Of a stretch of 64,000 nucleotides of DNA, positions 7,769-51,773 are shown one piece after another. Each line of letters starts with the position of its first letter. Positions within the stretch are counted from its first letter, which is position 1. The DNA comes from Geobacillus subterraneus (lineage in GTDB: Bacteria; Bacillota; Bacilli; Bacillales; Anoxybacillaceae): the NCBI RefSeq assembly GCF_001618685.1, contig NZ_CP014342.1, positions 2,418,001 through 2,482,000 on the forward strand, read 5' to 3'. The notes below the pieces were generated by a model. It was not told the DNA's origin and searched no databases. It worked only from the letters and a program-made list of their open reading frames with translations. Position numbers and translations under genes: made by a program.

Positions 7769-8659
7769 TTGTTAGCGTTTATCCTTTTTTTGACTTTTCT
7801 CATCGTTTCCCTTTGTTTTGTTCTCTTGAGAAGACCTCTAAACGGGAGGATGGATCAACTGTCGCTCGGATTGTATATTTCCTGTTTCTTGCTATTGGCC
7901 GCCTCATTATCCTATTATGCAAGTTCGGCCCAGACAGGCGATGCCATCAAAGCCTTCATACAGAACAGAAACAGCAGAGAAACCAATCCGTCCCCCAGCA
8001 ATCAAGCAAAGGAGGCGAATCGATCAGTTGCCTCTTCAAAGAAACAAGCGCTAAGGACATCCGTCCTGATTGACGCCCCCCTTTTGTCTCAGCTTCCGGA
8101 ACTGCCGAGGGGATGCGAAGTAACCAGCTTGGCCATGCTCTTGAATCATGCGGGCATTCGCGTCGATAAGATGACGTTGGCGAAACAAATCAAGAAAAAT
8201 CCTACTCCGTATCAAGTGCGAAATGGCCAAGTGTTTTACGGCCACCCAAATGAAGGGTTTGTCGGCGATATGTATACGTTATCGAAGCCTGGATACGGCG
8301 TGTACCATAAGCCGATCAAGCAGTTGGCTGAGCGGTACTTGCCTAACCAAATCATCGACTTAACAGGGCAATCGTTTGAGAACATCTATACATACTTGGC
8401 CAAAGGCACACCGGTTTGGGTGATCACCAACACCACCTTTCGTCCTCTTCCTCCCTCTGCCTTTCGGGAATGGCAAACCCCGCAAGGCCCGATCAAAATC
8501 ACGTACCGGGAACACGCGGTGCTCATTACGGGATACGATGAGCAGTACATTTATTTCAATGATCCATTGACCGCTGTCAAAAACCAAAAAGCGCCGAAAC
8601 AAGACTTTATCGACGCTTGGGTTCAAATGGGACGGCAGGCGATTACCTACCACCGTTAG
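7769..8659 (+). CDS. Membrane-anchored C39-like peptidase family protein
   Basis: The 296-residue protein begins with two hydrophobic segments (about residues 1-20 and 27-50), then a polar linker and a C39_2-type papain-like domain. The probable nucleophile is the Cys in [12 protein letters not shown], and the His lies in [10 protein letters not shown], followed by YFNDP. The domain is likely extracytoplasmic. No ATG fits; AAAGGAG (7751-7757) lies 11 bases before a TTG at 7769, which is chosen. A homologous 39-codon tail of this gene sits in front of copper cluster copy 2 (44149-44266). It was therefore part of the duplicated unit, or next to it. Substrate unknown. Confidence 0.8.
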
Positions 8660-8788
8660 ACATCGGTGAATCCGAATCGCTTGCCTTTTTTTACATTTCA
8701 GTTGAACGATTTTCTCCATACATTTTGCACATCTATTTTTTATCATATCATTGCATCTCCCACTACAAGCTTAAGGAGGGAAAACGAC

Positions 8789-10366
8789 ATGAAAAAATGG
8801 CTGCTTGGCGCCATTTTCGCAGGAGTAGCAGCGATTGGCGCAGCTTGCTCAAATCCATCTTCCATGCAGGGACACGACATGTCCGGCATGAATATGGAAA
8901 AAGAAAATACTTCCGCTGAAACGAGCAAGCAGCAATTGCCTTTAGCAACCAATACAGAAGTATTATCCGGGAAAGAAATTCACCTTACTGCGAAGGAAGC
9001 GTTATTACCCATTAATGGTCAAATCAAACTCCCGGTATACACGTATAATGGATCCGTGCCTGGTGCACAAATCCGCGTGAAGCAAGGAGACAAAGTAAAA
9101 ATCGTAGTAAAAAATGAATTGCCGGAACCGACAACGATTCACTGGCACGGCTACCCTGTTCCAAATAACCAAGATGGAGTACCGGGTGTCACGATGGACG
9201 CCATTAAACCGGGTGAAACGTTTACGTATGAATTTACAGCAACCGTGCCGGGAACGTATTGGTATCATTCCCATCAAAAAAGCGCCGAGCAAGTGGACAA
9301 GGGATTATACGGTACATTAATCGTAGAACCGAAAAATGAAGAAAAAGTCGATCGAGATTATACACTTGTGTTAGATGAATGGATGAGCAATCCGGATGAA
9401 GGAAATATGGATATGAGCGGCATGGATCATAGTAATATGAATAATGGAAATAGCTCTGATAATCAACAAATGGATATGAGCAGCATGGGCCATGATATGA
9501 GTATGTATGATATTTTCACGATTAACGGGAAAAGCGGTTCCGCTGTCCAACCTTTAAAAGTGAAGAAAGGCGAAAAGGTGCGGCTTCGTCTGATCAACGC
9601 AGGATACATGGCCCACAAACTTCACCTGCATGGTCATGAGTTTAAAATTGTCGCAACTGACGGGCAGCCGTTAAAAGATCCGCAACCAATCAAAGATGAA
9701 CTTTTAAGTATTGCTCCGGGTGAACGTTATGATATTGAATTTATCGCGAATAACCCGGGTGAATGGTTATTAGAATGTCATGGTGATATGGAAGGTACCG
9801 ATGGCATGAAAGTGAAAATTCAATACGAAGACCAGACAAACAATACGGATAAAGAAAATGCAAAAGAAAACCTCCCTGTTGTGGATATAACAACATACGG
9901 AAAATATGAAGTAGGTCAATTTACACTAGACCAAAAATATGATGTAGAGTACACAATGGATTTAGGAACAGCCATGGGCAAAGATGGCATGGTCTACACG
10001 ATTAATGGGAAAACGTATCCTGACACAGCGCCTATTAATGTGAAGACAGGAGATTTAGTAAAAGTCAGAATTGTGAACAATTCACCAAAAGATGTACATC
10101 CGATGCATTTACACGGCCATTTCTTCCAAGTATTAAGCAAAAACGGCAAGCCGGTCACAGGCTCTCCATTGATAAAGGATTCCTTAAATGTAAACCCTGG
10201 TGAAGAATATGTCGTCGCGTTTAAAGCGGATAATCCGGGAAATTGGATGTTCCATTGCCATGACTTGCACCATGCTTCAGCCGGAATGGTCACAGAAGTA
10301 AAATATACCGATTACAAATCGGACTATACCCCAGATCCGAATGACACAACGAATAAAGGTGAATAA
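8789..10366 (+). CDS. Copper-resistance multicopper oxidase lipoprotein, copy 1
   Basis: This 525-residue oxidase has a lipoprotein signal ending at Cys20 (AIGAAC) and cupredoxin domains carrying all copper motifs: HWHG (118-121), WYHSH (158-162), HLHGHEF, HPMHLHGHFF (437-446) and HCHDLHH (489-495). A Met-rich loop (about 206-239, GNMDMSGMDHSN...) resembles Cu(I)-binding inserts of CueO/CopA-type oxidases. It probably oxidises Cu(I) at the outer membrane face. AAGGAGGG lies 8 bases before the ATG at 8789. It ends in a strong terminator and converges on the csoR-copA-copZ operon. From HWHG to the C-terminus it is identical in protein sequence to copy 2 (44429-46003), while the N-terminal part differs. 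Confidence 0.92.
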   Translation: MKKWLLGAIFAGVAAIGAACSNPSSMQGHDMSGMNMEKENTSAETSKQQLPLATNTEVLSGKEIHLTAKEALLPINGQIKLPVYTYNGSVPGAQIRVKQGDKVKIVVKNELPEPTTIHWHGYPVPNNQDGVPGVTMDAIKPGETFTYEFTATVPGTYWYHSHQKSAEQVDKGLYGTLIVEPKNEEKVDRDYTLVLDEWMSNPDEGNMDMSGMDHSNMNNGNSSDNQQMDMSSMGHDMSMYDIFTINGKSGSAVQPLKVKKGEKVRLRLINAGYMAHKLHLHGHEFKIVATDGQPLKDPQPIKDELLSIAPGERYDIEFIANNPGEWLLECHGDMEGTDGMKVKIQYEDQTNNTDKENAKENLPVVDITTYGKYEVGQFTLDQKYDVEYTMDLGTAMGKDGMVYTINGKTYPDTAPINVKTGDLVKVRIVNNSPKDVHPMHLHGHFFQVLSKNGKPVTGSPLIKDSLNVNPGEEYVVAFKADNPGNWMFHCHDLHHASAGMVTEVKYTDYKSDYTPDPNDTTNKGE

Positions 10367-10386
10367 CAGCTTATCGTAGTAAATAA

Positions 10387-10446
10387 AAGAGGCTGATTTC
10401 AAAAGGTCGATTTAGCAACCTTTTGAGACAGCCTCTTATTTTTTTG
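10387..10446 (+). terminator. Terminator after multicopper oxidase copy 1
   Basis: A long stem, AAGAGGCTG...CAAAAGG/CCTTTTG...CAGCCTCTT, is followed by T7. It is duplicated almost exactly at 46024-46081. Confidence 0.88.
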
Positions 10447-10520
10447 TTTTTATTTCCAGTTTATTATTTTTTAGTTAGAAAAAAATAAAAATGAATTTAA
10501 ATCAAAAGGAGTGATTATAT

Positions 10521-10868
10521 ATGACAACGGTTATTGATTCATCATTTCAACAATTTCAAACGTGTATTGATGCTTGCAACCAATGTATGCAAGCTTGTGA
10601 AGAATGTCTGACTTCATGTTTAAAAGCAGCTGACGTACAGGCTAGAACACATTGTATCAACATTTTAAGGGATTGTGCAGATATTTGTGCCATGGCGGCT
10701 CAATGGATGTCTCGCGGAAGCATGTATGCGAAGGAGTTTTGCCAACTTTGCGCGACAATTTGCGATGCTTGTGCCGCTGAATGTGCAAAATTCCAAGATA
10801 CACACTGTCAGGAATGTGCCAATTTATGCCGTCAGTGTGCTGAAGAATGCCGTAAAATGTCATCATAA
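10521..10868 (+). CDS. csp3: Cys-rich four-helix copper storage protein, copy 1
   Basis: This 115-residue protein has 19 cysteines, mostly in CxxC and CxxxC spacing along predicted helices (for example CIDACNQCMQACEEC and CQECANLCRQCAEEC), and no signal peptide. This matches cytosolic Csp3-type copper storage proteins such as Bacillus YhjQ, which bind many Cu(I) ions inside a four-helix bundle. AAAAGGAG lies about 9 bases before the ATG. It sits downstream of the oxidase terminator and upstream of a bidirectional terminator, opposite the CsoR operon. It differs from copy 2 by only a few codons near residues 20-27. Confidence 0.9.
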   Translation: MTTVIDSSFQQFQTCIDACNQCMQACEECLTSCLKAADVQARTHCINILRDCADICAMAAQWMSRGSMYAKEFCQLCATICDACAAECAKFQDTHCQECANLCRQCAEECRKMSS

Positions 10869-10876
10869 TACTATTT

Positions 10877-10914
10877 GAGGGTGTCTCAAAAGTGATCACT
10901 TTTGAGACACCCTC
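10877..10914. terminator. Bidirectional terminator between csp3 and copZ, copy 1
   Basis: A perfect 38-bp palindrome (19-bp arms beginning GAGGGTGTCTC) separates convergent genes. The same palindrome is present at 46520-46557. Confidence 0.9.
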
Positions 10915-10925
10915 TCTCTTTCATG

Positions 10926-11132
10926 TTACTTCACATTATATCCTTGCTCTTCAATCGCTTCTTTCAGTTTTTCTACGCTGACCTTTGTTTCATCATACTC
11001 CACATCGACAGTTCCTTCTTGCAAATGCACTTCTACACGGCTGACGCCATCCAACGCTTGAAGGGCATTGGTCACCGCCGCTTTGCAATGTCCGCATGTC
11101 ATTCCTTGTACTTGTAATGTAATCGTCATCAT
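10926..11132 (-). CDS. copZ: Copper chaperone CopZ, copy 1
   Basis: This 68-residue HMA-domain protein has the metal site GMTCGHC (MxCxxC) in the first loop and the usual beta-alpha-beta-beta-alpha-beta length. It carries Cu(I) in the cytoplasm to the N-terminal domains of CopA. AAGGAGG lies just upstream of tandem ATG codons at 11132 and 11129; either may be used. It is last in the csoR-copA-copZ operon, 18 bp after copA. The protein is identical to copy 2. Confidence 0.95.
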   Translation of the reverse strand: MMTITLQVQGMTCGHCKAAVTNALQALDGVSRVEVHLQEGTVDVEYDETKVSVEKLKEAIEEQGYNVK

Positions 11133-11150
11133 CCATTCCTCCTTGAATGT

Positions 11151-13547
11151 TTATAGTTTCACGCGTTTCAAACGAAGCGCGTTTGTCACAACCGATACAG
11201 AGCTAAATGCCATCGCTGCCCCAGCGATCCAAGGTTCCAACAGCCCGAGAGCGGCTACAGGAATGCCAACTGTATTATAGAACAAAGCCCAGAACAGATT
11301 TTGCCGAATGTTTTTCATCGTTTTGCGGCTCAACTCAATGGCTTTCGGGATATGGCGCAAATCGCCGCCGACCAAGGTCACGTCCGCGGTCTCGATGGCG
11401 ACATCAGCTCCCGTGCCAATCGCCATCCCAATATCCGCTTTGGCCAGAGCTGGAGCGTCATTAATTCCATCACCGACCATCGCCACACGTTTTCCTTGCT
11501 TTTGCAATTCCTCGACGATGTTCGCTTTGTCTTCCGGGAGCACCTCGGCGTACACATGCTCAATGCCGACTTCATTGGCGATCGCTTCCGCTGTCCGTTG
11601 ATTGTCCCCTGTTGCCATATAGACATCGATGCCCATTTGTTTTAATGTTTGAATTGCTTCTTTGGAGCTTTCTTTTACCGTATCCGCGACAGCAATGATG
11701 CCGGCAAGCTGTCCATCGATGGCAGCGAGCATCACTGTTTTCCCTTGTTTTTCAAGCTCTACCATTTTATCTTCATGCACAGAAATCGCTACAGAGCGTT
11801 CCTTCATCAATTTTCGCGTCCCAATAAGGATGCTTTTTCCGTCAATGACCGCTTCAATTCCGTGGCCGGTAATGGCGGAGAAGTGCTCCAATGGCTTCAT
11901 CGAAATCGCTTGTTTCTTCCCGTATTCAACAATCGCATGAGCCAGCGGATGCTCCGAAGCGCTCTCGGCGGAAACCGCATAATCGAGCATGTCCTCGCGG
12001 AAGGCTAGCACATCGGTGACTTCCGGTTTTCCTTTTGTCACGGTTCCTGTTTTATCGAGTAATACGGCATTGATTTGATGCGTTCTCTCTAGGTACTCAC
12101 CTCCTTTAAAGAGAATTCCCTGTTCTGCCCCTTTGCCGGTGCCGACCATAATCGATGTCGGTGTGGCCAAACCGAGCGCACAAGGGCACGCGATGACAAG
12201 AACGGCGATGGCCGCCTCAAGCGCTTTCGCCAAATCACCCGGCGCAACAAAGAAGTACCATATAATGAATGCAACGACAGCAATTCCGACAACAATCGGT
12301 ACGAAAATGCCGGAAATGGTATCCGCCATCCGCTGAATCGGGGCTTTCGACCCTTGCGCCTCTTCAACGATTTTAATGATATTGGCCAGCGCGGTATCTT
12401 TTCCGACTTTTTCGGCACGAATGGTCAGTACGCCATTCGTATTCATCGTCGCCCCGATCACATAGTCGCCTTCCTTCTTATCAACCGGGATCGATTCACC
12501 GGTAATCATCGATTCGTCTACGGAAGAAGCGCCGGAGATGACTGTACCGTCTACCGGAATTTTTTCTCCTGGCTTGACAAGAATCGTATCGCCGATCACC
12601 ACTTCCTCCAGCGGAACTTTCATTTCTTCCCCATTCCGAATGACGGTCGCTTCCTTCGCCTGCAGGCTGACTAGCTTCGAGATCGCTTCGGTTGTCCGCC
12701 CTTTCGCAAGAGCCTCAAAGTATTTGCCGACAAGCACAAGCGTAATCAAGACGGCGCTCGTTTCAAAATACAGCCTCGGCATATAGTCAGGATTCCCAAG
12801 CGTCCGCCACGCTTCATACAAGCTGTAAAAGTACGCGGCCGATGTCCCCAGCGCCACGAGAACGTCCATGTTGGCGCTTTTGTTGCGCAACGCCCGATAC
12901 GCCCCGACATAGAAGGGACCGCCGATGTAAAACTGAACGGGTGTAGCTAAAAGAAGCTGGAACCACGGATTCATCAAGAGCTGCGGCATCGGCAAGCCCA
13001 TATCAAACGGCATATGAGCCAGCATCGTATAAAGCAGCGGCAACGATAAGATGATGGAAATGGCGAGTTGCCGTTGTTTTTGTTTCAGCCGCTCTTCTTT
13101 CCGACCAGCATGGTCTTGTTCTTCGTTTCGAATTTGCCCCCTGTACCCAAGCTTTTTGATTTTCTCTAAAATGTCTTCGACAGATGTGACACCCTCCTTG
13201 TATTCGACCACCGCGCTGTTTGTCGCCAAGTTGACAGCAGCGCTTGTAACACCTTCCATCCGATTTAACCCTTTTTCAATCCGTGTCGCACAGGCCGCAC
13301 ATGTCATTCCTTCAATATCAAGCGTCACTTTTTCTGTCGCAACGCCATACCCCAAATTCTCAATTTTCATTTCGATATCGGCTATATTTTGCTTCGATGG
13401 ATCATATTTAATCGTTGCTTTTTCCATTGCCAAATTGACATTGGCTTCTACGCCATCCATCTTATTTAATACTTTCTCAATCCGATTGGCGCACGCGGCA
13501 CATGTCATGCCGGTCACTCTAAGTGTGACATGCTTTTGTTCACTCAT
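11151..13547 (-). CDS. copA: Copper-exporting P1B-type ATPase CopA, copy 1
   Basis: This 798-residue ATPase has two N-terminal HMA domains (GMTCAAC at Cys16/Cys19 and Cys83/Cys86), eight expected membrane helices, the TGES actuator loop (about 349), the transmembrane CPC site (454-456, [10 protein letters not shown]), the phosphorylation site DKTGT (Asp498), SEHPLAHA, and GDGINDAP in the nucleotide domain. It exports Cu(I) from the cytoplasm using ATP. The ATG at 13547 (MSEQKH) follows AAAGGAG with about 11 bases and is preferred to an in-frame start 21 bases upstream that overlaps csoR. It is co-transcribed with csoR and copZ. Blocks of this gene are identical to copy 2 while others differ. 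Confidence 0.96.
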
Positions 13548-13564
13548 AATGCTTCCCACTCCTT

Positions 13565-13876
13565 TCACTTTGAGAACTGTTTAATGACATCCATTAATTC
13601 GCGAATGGATTCTTCTCCACTTCCTTCGCGGATCGCTTTCGACACACAATGGCTGACATGACGTTCTAACAAGTTCAATCCTACTTTATTTAACGCTGCC
13701 GTGATCGCTGAAATTTGCACTAAAATATCAATACAATAACGATTGTCCTCCACCATTTTTTGCACACCGCGCACTTGTCCTTCGATGCGCTTCAAGCGCT
13801 TGATGATGCGTTCGATTTCCTGTTCCGTTCGTGGAACCATTTTTTTATCCATATTATGATCTTCATAATGGTTCAT
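13565..13876 (-). CDS. csoR: Copper-sensing repressor CsoR, copy 1
   Basis: This 103-residue all-helical DUF156-family repressor has the Cu(I) ligands of true CsoR proteins: Cys48 (NRYCID), His73 and Cys77 (ERHVSHC). Apo-CsoR binds GC-poor dyads with GG/CC cores and releases on Cu(I) binding. The ATG at 13876 follows AGAGGTGATG; a TTG one codon earlier is less likely. It heads the csoR-copA-copZ operon (17-bp gap to copA) and a matching operator lies 26 bp upstream. Confidence 0.95.
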
Positions 13877-13901
13877 CAAACATCACCTCTTTTCATTACA
13901 T

Positions 13902-13920
13902 TATACCGGTAATGGGTATA
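13902..13920. promoter_or_regulatory. Probable CsoR operator, copy 1
   Basis: The inverted repeat TATACC-N7-GGTATA lies just upstream of csoR. It resembles the ATACCC/GGGTAT dyads bound by Bacillus CsoR. The identical site is present before csoR copy 2 (49544-49562), and flanking bases have diverged, which supports function. Confidence 0.8.
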
Positions 13921-14011
13921 AAATGCAACAGAGATCCCCTCTACAAATCATGTTCACCACAAAACCGTAATCAATACCTGCGCAGGAAAAAGCCCGCTTT
14001 CCACAAAAAAT

Positions 14012-14119
14012 TCACAATTTTAATACTTTAATACCATAATAAAACATGACATAACTGATCAATAAGCCGCTGATAAGCAAAAGATTTTCGCCCTGAACGA
14101 CTATATTGCCGAATTGCAA
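14012..14119 (-). pseudogene. 5' fragment of a membrane-thioredoxin fusion gene (deletion scar)
   Basis: Starting from TTG at 14119 the frame reads MQFGNIVVQGENLLL..., matching the first ~33 codons of the intact gene at 50494-51732, including its ribosome-site region. It then stops at a TGA formed by fusion to sequence that in copy 2 lies upstream of csoR (TTCACAATTTTA). All of ccdA and the remaining ~375 codons are missing. It is not expected to make a functional protein. Confidence 0.85.
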
Positions 14120-14256
14120 TATACATTCCCCCAAAATTCATATTTCTATCGGTATTAGAAAGGATTCTTCTTTGCGACGAAAAAAATACAACTATAACTA
14201 CATCACCCTAACCATCTTGAAACGTTCTTCCAAACATTGTTACTGCATCATCTTCT

Positions 14257-15093: not shown

Positions 15094-15094
15094 C

Positions 15095-27226: not shown

Positions 27227-27231
27227 AACGA

Positions 27232-38685: not shown

Positions 38686-38879
38686 CTTCAATTTTTCCTC
38701 CATACGCATTGGTCGTTTCCCGAATCACTCTAATGCCTGACAAATATTCAGAAGACTATGCAGTTCCATTTTACCATAAAACTTTACAGCATTTCACATT
38801 TCATCATACATTCAGTTTCATTAGGAATAAATTTAGACAAAATAACAAACAACGGCTTTTCCTGTTCAACAAGGATTCC

Positions 38880-39141
38880 CCGAGTTCGACAGTGACGAGG
38901 CAAACAAAATGCCTCTCATCCCTTGATACCAAAGGAACGAGAGGCATTGGGGCATACGTTGGGCGTGTATGTAGGTGCGAGGATGAATGCCTAGAATCTT
39001 CGGAGGAGGCTCCAGCCCTAGGGCCGCAAAGAGTTGCACTTGTTTGGCCGTCAGTTTGGTTCGCTGATCAAGGCCGCCGTTTTTTGAAGAAAAATGTCCA
39101 ATTTCATTTGCCTAAAATGGCCTAAAAACTGTCGAACTCGG
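38880..39141. mobile_element. 262-bp MITE-like IS deletion derivative (repeat copy 2)
   Basis: Terminal inverted repeats CCGAGTTCGACAGT (38880-38893) and ACTGTCGAACTCGG (39128-39141) enclose 218 bp shared with 31014-31231, plus about 30 bp from the other IS end. The transposase core is deleted. Flanks carry ATTC on both sides (38875-38878, 39142-39145), a possible target duplication. It lies 0.2 kb upstream of hsdR and borders the restriction island on the right. Confidence 0.8.
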
Positions 39142-41395: not shown

Positions 41396-41445
41396 AGCCT
41401 CACCCAGATCATCAAAAAATTTAAGTTTGCAGTAAAAGCAACTCT

Positions 41446-42821
41446 TTACTGTAGATGAGCAAATTTGCTAACATAAATTGACAACTAAACAAAAAAAGGA
41501 GACATGAACCCGATTCCTTGGTTAGAATAGATGTGCCACCAACTACCCACAAGGAGGTTCATGTCTCATGAATAGATTAGCACATCATCAAGGAATCCAC
41601 AAGTTTTTCATGACGCTGGGATTGGCGCTTTATTTCTCGAAGCCGGTCATCAAGCATCTGGTTCATCTTGTCGACGCCTTGACGACCAAGGGATGTTCGG
41701 GGACATTGACGGATGTCGGGTACTGGAGTTTTCACCCGAATCATCGAACCACGCTCAGCCATTTTTTCACGAAAAGCCCTTGGAACGAGGAAAAACTGCT
41801 TGAGAAGCTTCAAGAATGGATCCTTCGCTAGATCGAACGCCTGGCCAAACGGGAGAATCAACCCCTTTTTGTTTCGATTGATGATACCATTTGCCAAAAA
41901 ACGAAGCCTTCGTCACGGGCTGCCCACGCCATTCAAGGGTGTGATTGGCATTTCTCTCACAGCGATCATCAATTGGTCTGGGGGCATTCGCTTGTTTGGC
42001 TGATGGTGCACACCTTCACGCAAGCGTTTCCGTTCGCCTTTCGTCTGTATGACAAGACGGCGGGAAGAAGCAAAATCGACCTGGCGATCGAGATGCTTTC
42101 CTCGCTCAAGGGGAAGCGGGCTCAGCCGGTGTATGTGCTCGTGGATTCATGGTATCCGTCCCAAGCGCTCATCGAAGCCTGTCTGAAACAAGGATTCCAT
42201 GTCATCGCCATGCTCAAGACGAACCGAATTCTCTATCCGAAAGGCATCGGCCGTCCAAGCGAAGGAGTTCGCCCGCTATATCGAACCAAACGACACCCGC
42301 CTCGTCACGGTGGGGAAGGAGCGTTACCGCGTGTATCGCTGTGAGGGATCGATCCATGGCCTCGATGACGCGGTGGTGCGGCTGGCTTGGAAGGCGGATC
42401 AACCGATGACGCCGGATCATCTCCATGTCATATTGAGCACCGACCGGGAGCTGAGTGACGAAGACATCTTGCGTTACTATGCCCAGCGCTGGACGATCGA
42501 ATGCTTTTTCCGGCAGGCCAAAGACCAGCTGAAGCTCGATGGGTACCGTGTTCGCCACGTTCGGGCGGTGAAAAGGTATTGGGCAGTGGTGCTATTCGCC
42601 TGCGTATACAGCATCGCGGAATCCCAACAAGACATCTCTTTCGGACTGGAGCTTCTTCGGTCTCGGAAAGGGCACAGCGTCGTCGAGTTCATCTATGACG
42701 CCGCAAAGCAAGATATTCCCATTGATGTGATCAAAAAACAGCTCCATGTTGCCTAAGGGGTCCCCTGTTTGTCTCTTAGGGTATGGAAATTACTGTAATG
42801 AAAAATGCTCATCTACAGTAA
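41446..42821 (+). mobile_element. Inactivated IS701/IS4-like insertion sequence
   Basis: Terminal inverted repeats TTACTGTAGATGAGCA (41446-41461) and TGCTCATCTACAGTAA (42806-42821) flank a single broken transposase gene. No target duplication is obvious. Confidence 0.85.
41568..42756 (+). pseudogene. IS701/IS4-like transposase with stop and frameshift
   Basis: The gene starts MNRLAHHQGIHKFFM after AAGGAGG. It is interrupted by a TAG at 41829-41831 (after KLQEWILR) and by a frameshift near 42240-42255 (after NRILYPKGI). Joined, the parts contain the DDE landmarks SIDDTICQKT, VDSWYPSQAL and the Tyr-rich WTIECFFRQAKDQLKLDGYR, ending KKQLHVA. The element cannot make its own active transposase. 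Confidence 0.9.
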
Positions 42822-42907
42822 TTGAGTAAAAAAATGGGAGGTTATTATTAAAATCCATACAAATTTATGTTAAAATTTAGATAAAGGATAAAGGGAGGGT
42901 GAAAAAA

Positions 42908-43143
42908 GTGAATTTTTTTGGGCAGGATTATTATTTTGGTTGTTAATCGGTGTTTCGATTTTCTTTCTCATTTGGGGATTGATTAAAAAAAGGGCAATTC
43001 ATTTTGTACTTAGTGCTTTACTATTTTCACCTATTGCTTATTATTTCAGTGGAGCAGAGAATGCTTTTAAGTTAATTATGTTTTATCCTATAGTTCCACT
43101 ATTGCTGGCGGTATTTTTCGTACCAAAAAAAAACGTTAAGTAA
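42908..43143 (+). pseudogene. Small membrane protein, probably frameshifted at a T7 run
   Basis: A GTG at 42908 follows GGGAGGG but reads out of frame after seven T (42913-42919). With eight T it would read MNFFWAGLLFWLLIGVS and continue into the open frame ending PKKNVK (42940-43143), giving a two-helix membrane protein of about 78 residues. As written, only the downstream part is open. This may be a true mutation or a base-calling error. The IS982 element begins at the stop codon. Confidence 0.55.
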
Positions 43144-44148
43144 ACCCGTGGTGCTAGTTGAGCGTCAGCGCTCAACCAGCCCTAGTGTGACCAAGGAATA
43201 AGCCAACAAGATGCCATCGAGTGCCACTTCAAACCCGGCCATGGAATTCGCTCGAATGTCGGTGATCCGGTATTGGTCTACGAGAATCGAAAACACCGTC
43301 TCGATGACTTTGCGTTTTTTCCTGATCCATTCTTCCCATGCCTTGGATGGGCCGTGCTTTTGATTGTGTCGAGACGGTGTCCAGAACGCGGCTTGGTGTT
43401 CTTCGTACAGCTTTTCTCGAAGAGCGTGGCTGATGTACCCTTTGTCCCCAAAGTTGTAGGGATGAGGGATTTGAGTCATCACCGTTTCAGCGGCTTTGAC
43501 GTCGTGGCAGGACGCTTCCGTCACGACATAGCCCATGGCCAGCCCTTGATTGGTCACTTGAAGATGCAGCTTGAAACCGTAGTACCATTGCTTTTTGGAA
43601 GCACAATACCCCATATCCGCGATCCCTCGAAATCGCTTGACGCGCTGCATTCTTGCGGGATGGCACAACGGAAGAGGCAAGCTGTCGACGACCGCATAAG
43701 CATGGTGTTGGCCACGTTTCGCCAGCTCATGACGAATCCATTTGATGGCGAAACCAAGCGCTCGGCAGCGGCGGTTGTATCGGGAGCGTTCAAGAAACGA
43801 GCCGTTTGTGAACAAATTTCCCGTGACAAAACGATGCCAGGCTCGTTCGGAAGAAAAGCCCAGCAGCTTCCCCAAAAGGTGAACCGCCATGACCACTTCG
43901 TCTTCTTGCTTGACCAAGTGACGGTTGCGGCGATGAAGATCCATTTGAATCAACGACAGTTGGGCAGAAACAAAACAGAAAATAGCGGCATATTGTTTTT
44001 GAAGTTTGGCTGGATCTGTAGTAAAATGAAAGTGCTCTTGCATGGGGGATCTCTCCTTTCGAATGTTGGGTGACACTTTCATTCTACTGGAGATCCGCCA
44101 GCAAGGGCTATTTTTATGCTTGTCTGAGTTTTATCTAGCACCACGGGT
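43144..44148 (-). mobile_element. IS982-family insertion sequence
   Basis: Perfect terminal inverted repeats ACCCGTGGTGCTAG (43144-43157) and CTAGCACCACGGGT (44135-44148) enclose one transposase gene. Left and right flanks belong to unrelated genes and show no target duplication, so a deletion accompanied or followed the insertion. Confidence 0.9.
43165..44043 (-). CDS. IS982-family transposase
   Basis: This intact 292-residue transposase has the IS982 DDE motifs: AVVDSLPLPLCHPARM (Asp), NFGDKGYIS (Asp), and KRKVIETVFSILVDQY (Glu). ATG at 44043 follows GGAGAG. It is apparently functional. Confidence 0.9.
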   Translation of the reverse strand: MQEHFHFTTDPAKLQKQYAAIFCFVSAQLSLIQMDLHRRNRHLVKQEDEVVMAVHLLGKLLGFSSERAWHRFVTGNLFTNGSFLERSRYNRRCRALGFAIKWIRHELAKRGQHHAYAVVDSLPLPLCHPARMQRVKRFRGIADMGYCASKKQWYYGFKLHLQVTNQGLAMGYVVTEASCHDVKAAETVMTQIPHPYNFGDKGYISHALREKLYEEHQAAFWTPSRHNQKHGPSKAWEEWIRKKRKVIETVFSILVDQYRITDIRANSMAGFEVALDGILLAYSLVTLGLVER

Positions 44149-44266
44149 ATATATTTATTTTAATGACCCATTGACAGGTACGAAAAATAAAAAAGCACCT
44201 AAGTCTGAATTTATTCAAGCTTGGATACAAATGGGCAAACAAGCTATTACCTATAACCGCAATTAA
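44149..44266 (+). pseudogene. 3' fragment of a second C39-like peptidase gene
   Basis: The 39 codons ([10 protein letters not shown]... to AITYNRN and TAA) match the end of the peptidase at 7769-8659. The rest was removed at the IS982 junction. It shows that the duplicated copper region once included this gene. Confidence 0.9.
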
Positions 44267-44428
44267 CCGGTTATAGGTAGTGGCTTATCTTTTTTATGTC
44301 AAACAATAATTTAATCTTCGAACTACTTCGTGTGAAAAAAAATATAATTTTTCTCCATAAATTTTGCACATTTATTTTTTATGATGACGTTACTATGACT
44401 TACATCACAAGTTTATGGAGGGAAAGCG

Positions 44429-46003
44429 ATGAAGAAATTATTGTTAGGAACTGTTTTGGCAGGAGTTGTTGCGATTGGTGCAGCTTGCTCAAATAATTCT
44501 TCGATGCAAGGACACGACATGTCCAACATGAATATGAAGGAAGAAAACACCGCACAGGACTCCAGTAAGAAACTGCCTTTGGCAACAAACACAGAAGTTT
44601 TATCCGGTAAAGAGATTAATCTTACTGCTAAGGAAGCATTATTACAAATAAATGATCAAGTCAAACTTCCGGTCTACACGTACAATGGATCGGTACCCGG
44701 TGCGCAAATCCGCGTAAAGCAAGGGGATAATGTGAAAATTGTTTTAAAAAATGAATTGCCAGAACCGATCACGATTCACTGGCACGGCTACCCTGTTCCA
44801 AATAACCAAGATGGAGTACCGGGTGTCACGATGGACGCCATTAAACCGGGTGAAACGTTTACGTATGAATTTACAGCAACCGTGCCGGGAACGTATTGGT
44901 ATCATTCCCATCAAAAAAGCGCCGAGCAAGTGGACAAGGGATTATACGGTACATTAATCGTAGAACCGAAAAATGAAGAAAAAGTCGATCGAGATTATAC
45001 ACTTGTGTTAGATGAATGGATGAGCAATCCGGATGAAGGAAATATGGATATGAGTGGAATGGATCATAGTAATATGAATAATGGAAATAGCTCTGATAAT
45101 CAACAAATGGATATGAGCAGCATGGGCCATGATATGAGTATGTATGATATTTTCACGATTAACGGGAAAAGCGGTTCCGCTGTCCAACCTTTAAAAGTGA
45201 AGAAAGGCGAAAAGGTGCGGCTTCGTCTGATCAACGCAGGATACATGGCCCACAAACTTCACCTGCATGGTCATGAGTTTAAAATTGTCGCAACTGACGG
45301 GCAGCCGTTAAAAGATCCGCAACCAATCAAAGATGAACTTTTAAGTATTGCTCCGGGTGAACGTTATGATATTGAATTTATCGCGAATAACCCGGGTGAA
45401 TGGTTATTAGAATGTCATGGTGATATGGAAGGTACCGATGGCATGAAAGTGAAAATTCAATACGAAGACCAGACAAACAATACGGATAAAGAAAATGCAA
45501 AAGAAAACCTCCCTGTTGTGGATATAACAACATACGGAAAATATGAAGTAGGTCAATTTACACTAGACCAAAAATATGATGTAGAGTACACAATGGATTT
45601 AGGAACAGCCATGGGCAAAGATGGCATGGTCTACACGATTAATGGGAAAACGTATCCTGACACAGCGCCTATTAATGTGAAGACAGGAGATTTAGTAAAA
45701 GTCAGAATTGTGAACAATTCACCAAAAGATGTACATCCGATGCATTTACACGGCCATTTCTTCCAAGTATTAAGCAAAAACGGCAAGCCGGTCACAGGCT
45801 CTCCATTGATAAAGGATTCCTTAAATGTAAACCCTGGTGAAGAATATGTCGTCGCGTTTAAAGCGGATAATCCGGGAAATTGGATGTTCCATTGCCATGA
45901 CTTGCACCATGCTTCAGCCGGAATGGTCACAGAAGTAAAATATACCGATTACAAATCGGACTATACCCCAGATCCGAATGACACAACGAATAAAGGTGAA
46001 TAA
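44429..46003 (+). CDS. Copper-resistance multicopper oxidase lipoprotein, copy 2
   Basis: This 524-residue paralogue of 8789-10366 has the same lipoprotein signal (GAACSN), HWHG, WYHSH, Met-rich loop, HPMHLHGH and HCHDLHH copper sites. The first ~115 residues differ at many positions (MKEENTAQDSSKK, LQINDQVKL, VKIVLKN), but from HWHG onward the protein is identical to copy 1 and the DNA nearly so. GGAGGGAAAGCG precedes the ATG. Presumed role is Cu(I) oxidation on the outer membrane face. Confidence 0.92.
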   Translation: MKKLLLGTVLAGVVAIGAACSNNSSMQGHDMSNMNMKEENTAQDSSKKLPLATNTEVLSGKEINLTAKEALLQINDQVKLPVYTYNGSVPGAQIRVKQGDNVKIVLKNELPEPITIHWHGYPVPNNQDGVPGVTMDAIKPGETFTYEFTATVPGTYWYHSHQKSAEQVDKGLYGTLIVEPKNEEKVDRDYTLVLDEWMSNPDEGNMDMSGMDHSNMNNGNSSDNQQMDMSSMGHDMSMYDIFTINGKSGSAVQPLKVKKGEKVRLRLINAGYMAHKLHLHGHEFKIVATDGQPLKDPQPIKDELLSIAPGERYDIEFIANNPGEWLLECHGDMEGTDGMKVKIQYEDQTNNTDKENAKENLPVVDITTYGKYEVGQFTLDQKYDVEYTMDLGTAMGKDGMVYTINGKTYPDTAPINVKTGDLVKVRIVNNSPKDVHPMHLHGHFFQVLSKNGKPVTGSPLIKDSLNVNPGEEYVVAFKADNPGNWMFHCHDLHHASAGMVTEVKYTDYKSDYTPDPNDTTNKGE

Positions 46004-46023
46004 CAGCTTATCGTAGTAAATAA

Positions 46024-46081
46024 AAGAGGCTGATTTCAAAAGGTCGATTTAGCAACCTTTTGAGACAGCCTCTTATTTTTT
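46024..46081 (+). terminator. Terminator after multicopper oxidase copy 2
   Basis: Same long AAGAGGCTG/CAGCCTCTT hairpin with T6 as at 10387-10446. The sequences of the two copies diverge immediately after it. Confidence 0.88.
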
Positions 46082-46163
46082 GTCCTTGGTTCGTATTTCC
46101 AGTATATTATTTTTTAGTTAGAAAAAAATAAAAATGAATTTAAATCAAAAGGAGTGATTATAT

Positions 46164-46511
46164 ATGACAACGGTTATTGATTCATCATTTCAACAATTTC
46201 AAACGTGTATTGATGCTTGTAACAAATGTGTGCAAGCATGTGAAGAATGTCTGACTTCATGTTTAAAAGCAGCTGACGTACAGGCTAGAACACATTGTAT
46301 CAACATTTTAAGGGATTGTGCAGATATTTGTGCCATGGCGGCTCAATGGATGTCTCGCGGAAGCATGTATGCGAAGGAGTTTTGCCAACTTTGCGCGACA
46401 ATTTGCGATGCTTGTGCCGCTGAATGTGCAAAATTCCAAGATACACACTGTCAGGAATGTGCCAATTTATGCCGTCAGTGTGCTGAAGAATGCCGTAAAA
46501 TGTCATCATAA
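46164..46511 (+). CDS. csp3: Cys-rich four-helix copper storage protein, copy 2
   Basis: This 115-residue Csp3-like protein differs from copy 1 only around residues 21-23 (CNKCVQAC instead of CNQCMQAC). It has 19 cysteines and no signal peptide. It shares ribosome site and flanks with copy 1. Confidence 0.9.
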   Translation: MTTVIDSSFQQFQTCIDACNKCVQACEECLTSCLKAADVQARTHCINILRDCADICAMAAQWMSRGSMYAKEFCQLCATICDACAAECAKFQDTHCQECANLCRQCAEECRKMSS

Positions 46512-46519
46512 TACTATTT

Positions 46520-46557
46520 GAGGGTGTCTCAAAAGTGATCACTTTTGAGACACCCTC
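46520..46557. terminator. Bidirectional terminator between csp3 and copZ, copy 2
   Basis: The 38-bp perfect palindrome is identical to that at 10877-10914. Confidence 0.9.
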
Positions 46558-46568
46558 TCTCTTTCATG

Positions 46569-46775
46569 TTACTTCACATTATATCCTTGCTCTTCAATCG
46601 CTTCTTTCAGTTTTTCTACGCTGACCTTTGTTTCATCATACTCCACATCGACTGTACCTTCTTGCAAATGTACTTCGACGCGGCTGACGCCATCCAACGC
46701 TTGAAGTGCATTTGTCACCGCCGCTTTGCAATGTCCGCATGTCATTCCTTGTACTTGTAATGTAATCGTCATCAT
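46569..46775 (-). CDS. copZ: Copper chaperone CopZ, copy 2
   Basis: 68-residue HMA protein with GMTCGHC, identical in protein sequence to copy 1 although several synonymous bases differ. This argues for purifying selection on both copies, or recent conversion of part of the gene. Confidence 0.95.
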   Translation of the reverse strand: MMTITLQVQGMTCGHCKAAVTNALQALDGVSRVEVHLQEGTVDVEYDETKVSVEKLKEAIEEQGYNVK

Positions 46776-46793
46776 CTATTCCTCCTTAAATGT

Positions 46794-49190
46794 TTATATT
46801 TTCACGCGTTTCAAACGAAGCGCGTTTGTCACAACCGATACAGAGCTAAATGCCATCGCTGCCCCAGCGATCCATGGTTGTAATAACCCAGCTGCAGCGA
46901 CTGGAATGCCAACGCTATTATAAAATAATGCCCAAAATAAGTTTTGCCGAATGTTTTTCATTGTTTTGCGGCTTAACTCAATCGCTTTCGGAATATGGGC
47001 TAAATCCCCACCGACCAAGGTAACATCGGCCGTTTCGATCGCGACATCCGCTCCTGTGCCAATCGCCATCCCAATATCCGCTTTCGCAAGAGCTGGAGCG
47101 TCATTAATTCCATCACCGACCATCGCGACTCGTTTCCCTTGTTTTTGCAATTCCTCGACGATTTTCGCTTTGTCTTCCGGCAGCACCTCTGCATAGACAT
47201 GATCAATGTGCACTTGGTTTGCGATCGCTTCCGCTGTCCGTTTATTGTCTCCCGTTACCATGTACACTTCGATACCCATTTGTTTTAATGTTTGAATCGC
47301 TTCTTTGGAGCTTTCTTTTACTGTATCCGCGACAGCAATGATGCCGGCAAGCTGTCCATCGATCGCAATGAGCATGACTGTTTTTCCTTGTTTTTCAAGC
47401 TCTACCATTTTATCTTCATGCACAGAAATCTCTACAGAGCGCTCCTTCATCAATTTTCGCGTTCCAATAAGGATGCTTTTTCCGTCAATGACAGCTTCAA
47501 TTCCGTGGCCGGTAATGGCAGAGAAATGCTCCAATGGCTTAATAGAAATTGCTTGTTTCTTCCCGTATTCAACAATCGCATGAGCCAACGGATGTTCCGA
47601 AGCGCTCTCGGCTGAAACGGCATAGTCAAGCATGTTTTCTTGGAATTGTAACACATCTGTCACTTCCGGTTTTCCTTTTGTCACTGTTCCTGTTTTATCC
47701 AGTAATACGGCATTGATTTTATGCGTTCCCTCTAGGTACTCACCTCCTTTAAAGAGAATTCCTTGTTCTGCCCCTTTGCCTGTACCGACCATAATCGATG
47801 TCGGCGTGGCAAGACCGAGCGCACAAGGACACGCAATGACAAGAACGGCGACGGCCACTTCAAGCGCTTTTGCCAAATCACCCGGCGCAACAAAGAAGTA
47901 CCATATAATGAATGCAACGACAGCAATTCCGACAACAATCGGTACGAAAATGCCGGAAATGGTATCCGCCATCCGCTGAATCGGGGCTTTCGACCCTTGC
48001 GCCTCTTCAACGATTTTAATGATATTGGCCAGCGCGGTATCTTTTCCGACTTTTTCGGCACGAATGGTCAGTACGCCATTCGTATTCATCGTCGCCCCGA
48101 TCACATAGTCGCCTTCCTTCTTATCAACTGGAATCGATTCACCAGTAATCATCGATTCATCTACGGAAGATGCCCCGGCGATGACCGTACCGTCTACCGG
48201 GATTTTTTCTCCTGGCTTGACAAGAATCGTATCGCCGATCACCACTTCCTCGAGCGGAACCTTTCTTTCCTCCCCATTACGGATAACAGTCGCTTCCTTT
48301 GCCTGAAGGCTCAACAGCTTAGAGATCGCTTCGGTTGTTCTCCCTTTCGCAAGATCCTCAAAGTATTTTCCGACAACCACAAGCGTAATCAAGACGGCGC
48401 TCGTTTCAAAATATAATCTTGGCATATATTCAGGATTCCCAATCGTTCGAAAAGCTTCATACAAGCTGTAAAAGTACGCAGCCGATGTTCCAAGCGCTAT
48501 GAGAACGTCCATGTTAGCGCTCTTGTTTCGTAACGCCCGGTACGCCCCGACATAGAAGGGACCGCCGATGTAGAACTGAACCGGTGTAGCTAAAAGAAGC
48601 TGGAACCACGGATTCATCAGCAGATGCGGCATCGGCAAGCCTATATCAAACGGCATATGGGCAAGCATCGTATAAAGCAGCGGCAACGATAAGATGATAG
48701 AAATAGCGAGTTGCCGTTGTTTTTGTTTAAGCCGCTCTTCTTTCCGGCCAGCATCGTCTTGTTCTTCGTTTCGAATTTGCCCCCTGTACCCAAGCTTTTT
48801 GATTTTCTCTAAAATGTCTTCGACAGATGCAACACCCTCCTTGTATTCGACCACCGCGCTGTTTGTCGCCAAGTTTACAGCAGCGCTTGTCACACCTTCC
48901 ATCCGATTTAACCCTTTTTCAATCCGTGTCGCACATGCCGCACATGTCATTCCTTCAATATCAAGCGTCACTTTTTCTGTCGCAACGCCATACCCCAAAT
49001 TCTCAATTTTCGTTTCGATATCGGCGATCGCTTGCTTCGATGGATCATATTTAATCGTTGCTTTTTCCATTGCCAAATTGACATTGGCTTCTACTCCATC
49101 CATCTTATTTAATACTTTCTCAATACGATTGGCACACGCGGCACATGTCATGCCGGTCACTCTAAGTGTGACATGCTTTTGTTCACTCAT
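46794..49190 (-). CDS. copA: Copper-exporting P1B-type ATPase CopA, copy 2
   Basis: 798 residues, the same length as copy 1, with both GMTCAAC metal domains, [27 protein letters not shown] and GDGINDAP intact. Amino-acid changes are scattered (for example [47 protein letters not shown]), while a central block of about 240 bp (47881-48120) is identical in DNA to copy 1 (12241-12480). Start at 49190 is as for copy 1. Nothing suggests a changed metal. Confidence 0.96.
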
Positions 49191-49207
49191 AATGCTTCCC
49201 ACTCCTT

Positions 49208-49519
49208 TCACTTTGAGAACTGTTTAATGACATCCATTAATTCGCGAATGGATTCTTCTCCGCTTCCTTCGCGAATCGCTTTCGACACACAATGGCCAAC
49301 ATGACGTTCTAGCAAGTTCAATCCTACTTTATTTAACGCTGCCGTGATCGCTGAAATTTGCACTAAAATATCAATACAATAACGATTGTCCTCCACCATT
49401 TTTTGCACACCGCGCACTTGTCCTTCAATGCGCTTCAAGCGCTTGATAATGCTTTCGATTTCCTGTTCCGTTCGTGGAACCATTTTTTTATCCATATTAT
49501 GATCTTCACAATGGTTCAT
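49208..49519 (-). CDS. csoR: Copper-sensing repressor CsoR, copy 2
   Basis: This 103-residue CsoR has the ligands Cys48, His73, Cys77 (ERHVGHC). It differs from copy 1 at a few positions, including an extra Cys at residue 4 (MNHCED for MNHYED). The two repressors could form mixed oligomers and bind both operators. ATG at 49519 follows GAGGTGATG. Confidence 0.95.
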
Positions 49520-49543
49520 AAAACATCACCTCTTCAATTACAT

Positions 49544-49562
49544 TATACCGGTAATGGGTATA
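49544..49562. promoter_or_regulatory. Probable CsoR operator, copy 2
   Basis: TATACC-N7-GGTATA dyad identical to 13902-13920, upstream of csoR copy 2. Confidence 0.8.
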
Positions 49563-49706
49563 AAGCGCAACTAGGATATCTCACAAATCATGTTCGCCAA
49601 CAATCCATAATAAACACTAAGTAGGAAAAATCCAATTTTCCACAAAAAATTCACAATTTTATTTTACAGTATCGTTATCAAGATTGAAGAGAGAGGATCG
49701 ATCAAT

Positions 49707-50414
49707 ATGAACGATATCAATGTATTTCTAGCTTTCGGAGCGGGATTACTGTCTTTTATATCCCCTTGTTGTTTACCGCTATATCCAGCTTTTTTATCTT
49801 ACATTACTGGGGTATCCGTTGATGAAATAAAGAAAGAAAATGGGATGCTTCAAAAACGCGCAATACTCCATACATTCTTTTTCTTGCTCGGTTTTTCCGT
49901 CATCTTCATCGCTATTGGTTTTGGTACTTCTGTAATAGGAAAACTATTCGTTGATTACCAAGATTTAATCAGACAAATTAGTGCCTTGTTCATTATCTTT
50001 TTTGGTCTCGTCATTTTAGGTGTATTTTCACCTTCCTTTATGATGAAAGATAAACGGTTAGTTTTCCGCAACAAGCCTTCCGGTTATTTTGGCTCTATTT
50101 TAATTGGCATAGGATTCGCAGCGGGCTGGACTCCCTGCACAGGTCCAATTCTTGTATCAGTGATCGCGTTAGCAGCTACCAAACCGAGTGCAGCTATGTT
50201 ATATATGTTCGCATATGTATTAGGGTTTGCTGTACCTTTTTTCATCATGTCATTTTTTATCAGCAAGTTGAATTGGATAAAAAGATATAACGCTGTCATC
50301 GTCAAAGTCGGAGGGGTTCTTATGATTATCATGGGAATTATGCTGTTTTTTGATTGGATGACAAAGATCATTATCTTTTTTACAGATTTGTTTGGTGGGT
50401 TCACAGGTTTTTAA
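49707..50414 (+). CDS. ccdA: CcdA-type thiol-disulfide membrane transporter
   Basis: This 235-residue six-helix protein has the two CcdA/DsbD redox cysteine regions, [13 protein letters not shown] (Cys21/22) and [11 protein letters not shown]. It carries reducing equivalents from cytosolic thioredoxin to extracytoplasmic thioredoxin-like proteins. GAGAGAGG lies about 10 bases before the ATG. It converges on the TlpA-like fusion gene at 50494, its probable redox partner. Copy 1 of the cluster lacks it. Confidence 0.9.
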
Positions 50415-50430
50415 TATACTCCCGAAATCC

Positions 50431-50478
50431 CCCCTTGAGTGAATAGCAACAATTCTTGTTACTGTCCACTCAGGAGGG
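50431..50478. terminator. Bidirectional terminator between ccdA and the TlpA fusion
   Basis: CCCCTTGAGTG (50431-50441) pairs with CACTCAGGAGGG (50468-50478) with an inner AACAA/TTGTT stem, between convergent genes. Confidence 0.7.
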
Positions 50479-50493
50479 ATCATTATTTAGTTT

Positions 50494-51732
50494 TTATTGA
50501 ATATTCGAGATCATGCGATCCATCGTTTCATAAGACATAGGACCTATATACTTATCTCTAATAACCCCGTTTTTATCGATGATATACGAAGTGGGGATCG
50601 TTATTGCACCGTATAGATTTCCAATGTCCCCTTGCTCATCAAGCACAACTTTAAATGTCACTCCCTTATTTTTCACAAAATCGTTCACCGCATCAGGACC
50701 TCTTTCGCTATTCGTTAAGTTGACTGCTAAAATTTCTACATTGTTATTTTTATTATTTTCGTAGAACTTTTGCATTTCTGGCATTTCAGCTCTACAAGGC
50801 GGACACCAAGTAGCCCAAAAATTCAATATCACCGTTTTTCCACGCAAATCAGACAATTTTATTTTATCCCCTGTAATTGAAAGTAATTCAAAATCCGGGG
50901 CAACTTCTCCTTTATTCGTGCCGATTTTTCCCGAATCCAATGAAGTAGACACGACCGGCTTTGGTTTGATCTTTCCTTCTTCCTGTTGATTGTTAAAAAT
51001 AGAAGCTACAGCAATACTTACCATCATCACACCTAAAGCGAGTTGGGTCATTGCGTTTCTCCGCCCCTTGTTCTCGTCCCCAAGAGCCGCTTCTCTTTCT
51101 CGCCTCTCTAACCAATATGAAATACATATAAAAACGATAACGAGAGAGCCATACAACCATACTTCTTTTGATATGATTCCTGTATTTACAAAATATTTTT
51201 TATACAGGGCTAGTTCGAATTGAATGAGATGGAACCATATAAGAAGTTGCAATAAAGTTTTTTGAATTTTGACTCGTGATGCTACTATAAAAAAACAAAT
51301 CGCTACTATTGCTTGCAAAATGATGAAATAATTTTGGGAATTTTCCATTACTCGAATCCATGCAAAAGTACTAAAATAGCCAAAATATACCGGAACTACT
51401 GCTCGTGTGTAAGAAGCCACAGGAATATTCTGCTTTTTTACGTATAACCAAGTATAGACCGTGATAAAAACAATCCCCATACTAATGCCAACATATCCCC
51501 CGTTAAAATAAAGGATTGTCATCGGATTTTGTAAAACTGAATTCGGATGTAAAAAGACATAACTAAATTTCCAAATGAGTACACCGTTAATAAAACTGTT
51601 AAAAATTAAATCCATGATGTTTCGTTCTATTTTTAATATCTTAATGCCGTAATAAAACATAACATAGCTAATCAGTAAGCTGCTTACGAGCAAAAGATTT
51701 TCGCCTTGAACTACAATATTGCCGAATTGCAA
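50494..51732 (-). CDS. Polytopic membrane domain fused to a TlpA/ResA-like thioredoxin
   Basis: The 412-residue protein has about seven hydrophobic helices in residues 1-215 (loosely like the prolipoprotein diacylglyceryl transferase fold, uncertain) and another anchor near 245. A TlpA/ResA-type thioredoxin domain follows with the active site WCPPC (Cys310/Cys313) and the cis-Pro IPTSYII. The thioredoxin should face outward and be reduced by the neighbouring CcdA. TTG at 51732 follows GGAGGG with 7 bases; this start is conserved in the copy 1 fragment at 14119. The tnpB-element end lies only about 45 bp upstream and may have replaced the promoter. Confidence 0.82.
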   Translation of the reverse strand: MQFGNIVVQGENLLLVSSLLISYVMFYYGIKILKIERNIMDLIFNSFINGVLIWKFSYVFLHPNSVLQNPMTILYFNGGYVGISMGIVFITVYTWLYVKKQNIPVASYTRAVVPVYFGYFSTFAWIRVMENSQNYFIILQAIVAICFFIVASRVKIQKTLLQLLIWFHLIQFELALYKKYFVNTGIISKEVWLYGSLVIVFICISYWLERREREAALGDENKGRRNAMTQLALGVMMVSIAVASIFNNQQEEGKIKPKPVVSTSLDSGKIGTNKGEVAPDFELLSITGDKIKLSDLRGKTVILNFWATWCPPCRAEMPEMQKFYENNKNNNVEILAVNLTNSERGPDAVNDFVKNKGVTFKVVLDEQGDIGNLYGAITIPTSYIIDKNGVIRDKYIGPMSYETMDRMISNIQ

Positions 51733-51773
51733 TACGCATCCCTCCAAAATTTTATGTAGTTGGCTTATTATAA

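Follow-up and report, generated by a model that had tools for sequence, protein, structure and literature searches.

An Anoxybacillus-like copper cluster beside the resident one in Geobacillus subterraneus, and the probable entry of csp3 into the resident locus by gene conversion

The window analyzed here, a 64,000-nucleotide stretch of the Geobacillus subterraneus genome (NZ_CP014342.1, positions 2,418,001 to 2,482,000; coordinates below are window positions), holds two copies of a copper-resistance cluster in which genes for a multicopper oxidase (MCO), the copper-storage protein Csp3, CopZ, CopA, and CsoR follow one another (Table 1). Self-comparison with blastn aligned 8710-14022 (copy 1) with 44349-49661 (copy 2) on the plus strand over 5,322 columns at 93.56% identity, a length and identity that exclude a chance repeat; a second block, 14018-14138 against 51631-51751 (84.3%), belongs with this long repeat. 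The offset within the cluster proper is 35,637-35,643 bp, so that the original prediction of two direct copies, equally oriented and almost constantly spaced, is borne out. The order of the five genes is identical and all five frames are open in both copies; Pfam matches identified the MCO, DUF326/Csp3, CopA, and CsoR, and CopZ was also recognized. The predicted repetition of the regulatory elements was likewise found: each cluster has a single operator-like palindrome TATACCGGTAATGGGTATA (13902, 49544), with no further occurrence in the window at zero or one mismatch, and the 38-bp terminator palindrome is identical between the copies. The claim that a whole cluster is repeated holds for the geometry but less well for the substance, as identity in 100-bp steps ranges from 74 up to 100% and copy 2 has ccdA and tlpA in addition, of which copy 1 retains only the 5' end of tlpA. 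Similarly, the tail of the C39 peptidase gene is indeed repeated (8546-8655 versus 44150-44259, 72.7%), but the whole gene exists in copy 1 only. Copy 2 has thus kept ccdA and tlpA and lost most of the C39 gene, and copy 1 shows the reverse loss.

Judging by protein families, CsoR would repress copZ-copA until it binds Cu(I), CopZ would hand Cu(I) to the exporter CopA, Csp3 would store Cu(I) in the cytosol, and the lipoprotein MCO would oxidize Cu(I) externally; CcdA and TlpA are predicted to act in thiol handling. Csp3 proteins bind many Cu(I) ions in a tetramer of four-helix bundles, and repressors of the CsoR family leave their operators in a Cu(I)-dependent manner. Both csp3 copies encode 19 Cys in 115 residues within a DUF326 protein, in keeping with the Cys-rich Csp3 family. 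CsoR has the Trns_repr_metal domain, and before the operon lies the operator-like palindrome, identical in both copies, a putative CsoR site.

The two copies have different origins. We compared them with a genus set of 14 genomes including this one (one genome per species) and a family set of 41 genomes, among which Anoxybacillus ayderensis AB04 (G014) and A. tepidamans DSM 16325 (G027) are of importance here. The flanks of copy 1 are about 96-99.5% identical to the resident loci of three congeners (G006, G009, and G011). Against congener G009, identity is 96-100% across the flanks, the 5' end of MCO, and copA-csoR; over 426 columns the MCO 5' end is identical to that of G009 and 79.1% identical to copy 2. 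In the copA-csoR segment 12484-13890, copy 1 is 98.9% identical to G009, and its counterpart in copy 2 is 96.3% identical to A. ayderensis. For copy 2 (44149-51773), a single alignment of 7,628 bp to A. ayderensis shows 96.9% identity, whereas asnB, which adjoins the cluster in that strain, reaches 77% only. Family matches longer than 400 bp over 1465-8000 and 55200-63900 (G014, G026, G027, and G030) are 66-78% identical, the fix operon is 80-82% identical to A. tepidamans, and the segment right of copy 1 shows 77% (G030) to 86% (A. tepidamans). Because copy 2 stands so far above these comparison genes, it is an import from an Anoxybacillus-like donor, and copy 1, by its flanks and orthologues, is the resident copper locus of the genus. 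This reading overturns the origin implied by the original prediction, namely, the duplication of one cluster.

The distribution of the genes bears on what the resident locus contained. The oxidase and copZ-copA-csoR lie at the resident locus in six congeners (G002, G003, G006, G007, G009, and G010); the oxidase is missing or a stub in G001, G012, and G013, the oxidase is present and copA absent in G004 and G005, and in G008 only a further, 75% identical operon was matched. Csp3 genes were found in 2 of the 14 genus genomes (this one and G011) and in 7 of the 41 family genomes, and in G011 they occur only in imported copies. The resident loci compared (G006, G009, and G011) lack both csp3 and its terminator, and the spacer there is unrelated. 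The genome studied here is a single contig of 3,474,426 bases (completeness, 100) with two full-length cluster matches; the next best match, at 75%, falls in a third copper operon (1.664 Mb), of which it covers a part. This third csoR-copA locus (C1:1664431-1666162) has a copA frame of just 481 codons, and the match is longer in G004, G005, and G008.

Identity between the copies is distributed as a mosaic. They differ by 20.7% in 8710-9135, by only 10 substitutions and one 6-nucleotide indel (0.53%) in the 1,872 bp of 9136-11007, and by 10.0% in 11008-12229; further to the right the difference is 0% in 12230-12483, then 7.4%, 0% in 13500-13616, and then 8.7%. A bounded tract of near identity within otherwise divergent copies is the expected mark of gene conversion. 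Across the 410 codons in the MCO part of the tract there are 2 changes, both synonymous, against synonymous differences at 78 of 359 and 52 of 338 codons in two copA segments; purifying selection therefore does not explain the identity of the tract. When copies 1 and 2 were compared with eight others, their longest agreeing run comprised 197 polymorphic sites over 1,020 bp, which none of 10,000 permutations reached; unrelated copies used as controls gave at most 39 sites (copy 2 with G009) and 36 sites (A. ayderensis with G009), and the resident and imported copies of G011 share 101 sites.

Trees point the same way. The alignment comprised 14 sequences; G001, G004, G005, G008, G012, G013, G025, and G030 were left out because MCO or copA was missing or short or because the sequence was more divergent. 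The trees of the four segments used 12, 13, 12, and 12 of these rows, excluding G011c2 (a near copy of the imported G011 cluster), the G011 resident from the MCO 5' segment, and G026 from copA. Copy 1 groups with G009 in the MCO 5' part and with the residents in copA-csoR. For the MCO body, the best tree unites copies 1 and 2 (99/98, bootstrap not settled), a clade that is rejected in both copA segments (approximately unbiased test, P = 3.8e-7 and 1.3e-46). With copy 1 and the imported G011 copy set aside, A. ayderensis is the nearest row to copy 2 in all four segments.

We therefore favor, with a probability of roughly 0.8, the reading that the pair consists of xenologues, that gene conversion homogenized them, and that csp3 reached the resident cluster in this way. 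An Anoxybacillus-like cluster, as part of a longer segment, would have entered an insertion sequence (IS)-rich variable region 35.6 kb from the resident and in the same orientation. Nonreciprocal exchange between the copies, presumably of the RecA type and with the immediate ancestor of copy 2 as donor, would then have homogenized patches, and the roughly 1.9 kb of 9136-11007, with one anchor in MCO and the other in copZ, would have brought csp3 and its terminator into the resident. The direction, from imported to resident, is indicated by the MCO body of copy 1, which is nearer A. ayderensis (97.3%) than G009 (92.3%), together with the absence of csp3 from the residents. Copy 1, copy 2, and the imported G011 copy share substitutions around the start of csp3 that all four aligned Anoxybacillus sequences lack.

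Congener G011 holds the same cluster pair in the same orientation, about 20.1 kb apart. Over 49560-51588, its imported copy matches copy 2 in 2,029 columns with no substitution and one gap column, and its imported MCO 5' end is 99.8% identical to copy 2. The imported segment of G011 continues to about 15.3 kb at 92-96% identity to A. ayderensis and is thus longer, so that the genome studied here would have kept about the left half. Between the copy-2-like ends, the imported copA-csoR of G011 is of resident type (97.3-98.0% to G009 and 90.3-93.7% to copy 2), which indicates a second exchange in the opposite direction. Its identity to G011's own resident is 95.9-96.6%, and that present resident does not clearly appear to be the donor.

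Several points weigh against the conversion reading or limit its detail. The limits of the tract (9136-11007) were chosen after the runs of agreeing sites had been seen, and the time and mechanism of the exchange were not observed directly. The control runs, though shorter, are also significant, and conserved stretches or wider recombination form a background to the run test; long runs also join copies of the imported lineage that belong to different genomes (173 sites for copy 1 with the imported G011 copy; 149 for copy 2 with A. ayderensis). In its MCO body, copy 1 is close to the G011 resident (96.7%) and to G006 (95.3%) as well, so these two residents are partly of the same type. A clade of copy 1 with all residents is rejected for the MCO body and both copA segments, with Anoxybacillus rows nesting among the residents, which implies wide recombination of the cluster in the family; some patches may accordingly have come by transformation rather than from within the genome. 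The imported G011 copy is 95.3% identical to copy 2 in the MCO body and differs from it in 51 of 3,891 columns over 40969-44860. Finally, copy 1 is without two patches of change common to copy 2 and the imported G011 copy (10445-10461 and 10577-10595), so that present-day copy 2 is not the exact donor; by the csp3-start substitutions, the donor would belong to the same imported lineage, either before the patch changes or as a sister copy. That the exchange occurred inside an ancestor of this very genome is hence a claim that we make with less assurance, although we consider it probable.

Two separate imports by transformation, in which the csp3 tract of the resident came from another Anoxybacillus-type molecule independently of copy 2, would account for the Anoxybacillus-like states of copy 1 at the two patches and would fit a cluster that is mosaic across the family. 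We regard this as unlikely in view of the csp3-start substitutions common to copies 1 and 2 and G011 and of the 1,020 bp, from MCO into the spacer, over which the two copies agree at every site. Segmental duplication within the lineage, followed by uneven divergence, would explain the like order, orientation, and offset as well as the patches of 100% identity, but several findings contradict it: beyond the tract the two copies have their closest kin in different genera, divergence immediately to the left reaches 20.7%, copy 2 carries Anoxybacillus-type ccdA-tlpA that copy 1 lacks, G011 holds the same pair, and the copies separate in the trees of the MCO 5' part and both copA segments. We rejected plain duplication on these grounds and consider it very improbable. 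Less credible still is an assembly artefact in which one copy is a false duplicate. This concern had been raised at the outset; we found no point in its support, and it is dispelled by a divergence of 6.4%, by distinct flanks and orthologues, by the single complete contig, and by the same arrangement at another spacing in G011.

How the cluster arrived is a separate matter, on which a composite-transposon origin does not compete with conversion. An IS-bounded unit might have landed beside the resident by chance, and an ISGsp1-type IS982 element does abut copy 2 on the left; a doubled unit in G011 that contains its imported cluster begins at the same IS. In the genome studied here, however, the right side has no matching IS982, no target duplication was seen by inspection at the left IS982, and the right edge is formed by an IS605/IS66 pair that cuts a segment longer in G011. 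For this genome we rejected the composite transposon because the second IS982 and the target duplication are both absent, and as a general account of arrival it seems doubtful.

Table 1. Features of the two copper clusters and their boundaries (window positions)
Feature	Position	Strand	Basis or remark
C39-like peptidase, whole, left neighbor of copy 1	7643..8659	+	PF13529, E 7.4e-43
Copy 1 MCO	8786..10366	+	PF07731/07732/00394, translation
Putative converted tract: MCO body, terminator, csp3, shared terminator, 3' part of copZ	9136..11007	.	near-identity runs vs copy 2
Terminator-like hairpin, MCO/csp3 spacer, copy 1	10389..10435	+	read from sequence
Copy 1 csp3, DUF326 copper-storage protein, 115 aa, 19 Cys	10521..10868	+	PF03860, E 2.9e-17
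Palindrome, terminator common to convergent csp3 and copZ, copy 1	10877..10914	.	self-comparison
Copy 1 copZ, 68 aa	10926..11132	-	
Copy 1 copA, P-type copper ATPase, resident type	11151..13568	-	PF00122/PF00702/PF00403
Copy 1 csoR	13565..13879	-	PF02583
CsoR-operator-like palindrome, copy 1	13902..13920	.	putative function
tlpA 5' remnant, copy 1, after loss of ccdA and most of tlpA	14018..14138	-	84.3% to 51631-51751
IS982-family element (ISGsp1-like), left boundary of imported cluster	43144..44148	-	PF13612
3' tail of imported C39 gene, truncated by IS	44150..44259	+	
Copy 2 MCO	44429..46003	+	96.8% aa to G014
Tract partner in copy 2, probable donor lineage	44773..46650	.	
Copy 2 csp3	46164..46511	+	
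Shared terminator palindrome, copy 2	46520..46557	.	
Copy 2 copZ	46569..46775	-	
Copy 2 copA, Anoxybacillus type	46794..49211	-	nearest row G014
Copy 2 csoR	49208..49519	-	PF02583
CsoR-operator-like palindrome, copy 2	49544..49562	.	putative function
ccdA/dsbD-type membrane protein, copy 2 only	49707..50414	+	PF02683, PF13386; 98% aa in G014
tlpA-type thiol-disulfide protein, copy 2 only	50494..51750	-	PF00578
Right boundary of copy 2: TnpB/IS605-type remnant, then IS66	51774..53782	.	

Some details of these features and of their relatives deserve mention. The C39 protein of copy 1 is 100% identical in G009 and in the G011 resident locus, and the copA of copy 1 has the G011 resident and G009 as its nearest rows. 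For the MCO of copy 1, 8786 is the likely lipoprotein start of a longer open reading frame that begins at 8666. The deletion of ccdA and tlpA in copy 1 is common to G006 and the G011 resident; G009 has both genes whole. In G009, which has no second cluster, the 5' part of ccdA lies between resident flanks and is 98-99% like copy 2; this part is possibly a trace of past exchange, although for ccdA-tlpA as a whole we could not tell past exchange from ancestral retention. The tlpA frame of copy 2 extends to 51849, into the adjoining IS, and relatives align from residue 26-35 onward. The IS982 element on the left is 99.5% identical to a G. zalihae plasmid element whose annotation places it in the ISGsp1 family, and the end of the TnpB/IS605-type remnant on the right recurs at many sites across this genome. 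The G+C content of both clusters (7643-14022 and 44349-51770) is 42.9-46.2%, with 36.2% in ccdA-tlpA, compared with 51.5% in the nrd/asnB genes and 54.5% at 55.2-63.9 kb; because it is low in both, the resident cluster, too, may have been imported, at an earlier time.

In G011, the imported cluster lies within a 39.8-kb unit that is present twice (C1:9063-48823 and C2:423360-463094); the two units are 99.8% identical, with 19 mismatches and 48 gap openings, and both start at the same IS982 element, but as the assembly consists of five contigs, the doubling is provisional. G011 also carries at least two kinds of short insertion, about 150 bp long, that resemble miniature inverted-repeat transposable elements. 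One kind is found in the spacer that separates csp3 from the imported MCO and directly in front of the resident C39 gene, with a 93% relative at window positions 1375-1523, and the other lies inside the imported copA and in the 5' part of tlpA. G011 and G013 share identical breakpoints of a deletion that removed the oxidase promoter and 5' part (window 8692-9228).

The content of the interval between the clusters was described correctly at the outset: an ETF/fix-type operon lies at 27.5-30.7 kb and a type I restriction system at 32.5-38.7 kb, and there are several transposases; glycosyltransferases and a second oxidase are also present. The stretch 22.1-40.9 kb is largely absent between the G011 clusters, and in G004 most of 22-38.7 kb is found close to the resident. 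Where both loci lie on one contig, as in seven congeners (G004-G007, G009, G010, and G012), the genes of 55-64 kb start 53-137 kb past the resident, compared with 41 kb here. The region is variable, and losing the interval would presumably be tolerated. A 223-bp direct repeat (31013-31235 and 38879-39101, 98.7%) brackets the entire type I restriction system and could offer a route for its loss or exchange. Recombination between the clusters, predicted to delete or amplify the 35 kb between them, is plausible, but neither a deletion or amplification junction nor a fused or deleted single-cluster form was seen among the matches listed for the 13 congeners or in eight congener neighborhoods, which, with one genome per species, says little about the species itself.

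If conversion is accepted, the window shows a way in which recombination with an imported homologue can bring a new gene into a resident resistance operon: exchange through flanking homology added csp3 to the resident operon, and G011 preserves the unconverted state. Two clusters should raise the dose of the system, and with csp3 the resident would have gained a capacity for storage that it did not have before. As direct repeats, the clusters also provide sites at which deletion or amplification could occur, copper stress being one possible occasion. Loci of this kind are misread when they are judged by the identity of the whole operon or by one tree, and some caution is in order. More tentatively, and with the odds in our view rather against it, this could be a general route ("upgrade and shed"), in which a foreign cluster near a resident writes an extra gene in by conversion and afterwards is at liberty to decay or disappear. 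If so, new genes would arise inside old operons without the trace of a mobile element, and the route would be caught twice, in this genome and in G011, with opposite directions of exchange.

Judged by titles and abstract openings, no published description of this locus was found. The kind of event, import followed by gene conversion, is already known, and the present case is a clean, dissectable instance of it. Roles of Csp3, CopZ, and CsoR in copper storage and efflux are described in PMC5171941. As in the CsoR-regulated copZA operon of Bacillus subtilis (PMC5171941), CsoR, CopZ, and CopA occur together here, and a palindrome precedes csoR too; unlike that operon, the genes are linked convergently to MCO and csp3 and are present twice. 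Like the Csp3 cytosolic storage proteins (PMC5171941), the present proteins are Cys-rich DUF326 members with no leader by inspection, but here csp3 lies inside a cop cluster and appears to have entered the resident locus by recombination. The Bacillus methanolicus plasmid pBM69 has the same order of C39-MCO-copZ-ccdA-tlpA-tauE and flanking genes; neither csp3 nor copA-csoR is listed on it, in PLSDB gene tables that are incomplete. In Staphylococcus aureus, a mobile copper locus (copB-mco, copXL) has likewise been added to a resident cop locus, with no exchange with the resident mentioned in the abstract openings (PMC6191537, PMC5947656). The patchy homogenization of dispersed homologues is reminiscent of the concerted evolution of paralogues such as rRNA operons (PMC6002687, PMC8022953, PMC6053082), at least as these papers introduce it, yet the partners in the present case are xenologues, and the tract includes a gene that was missing from one of them.

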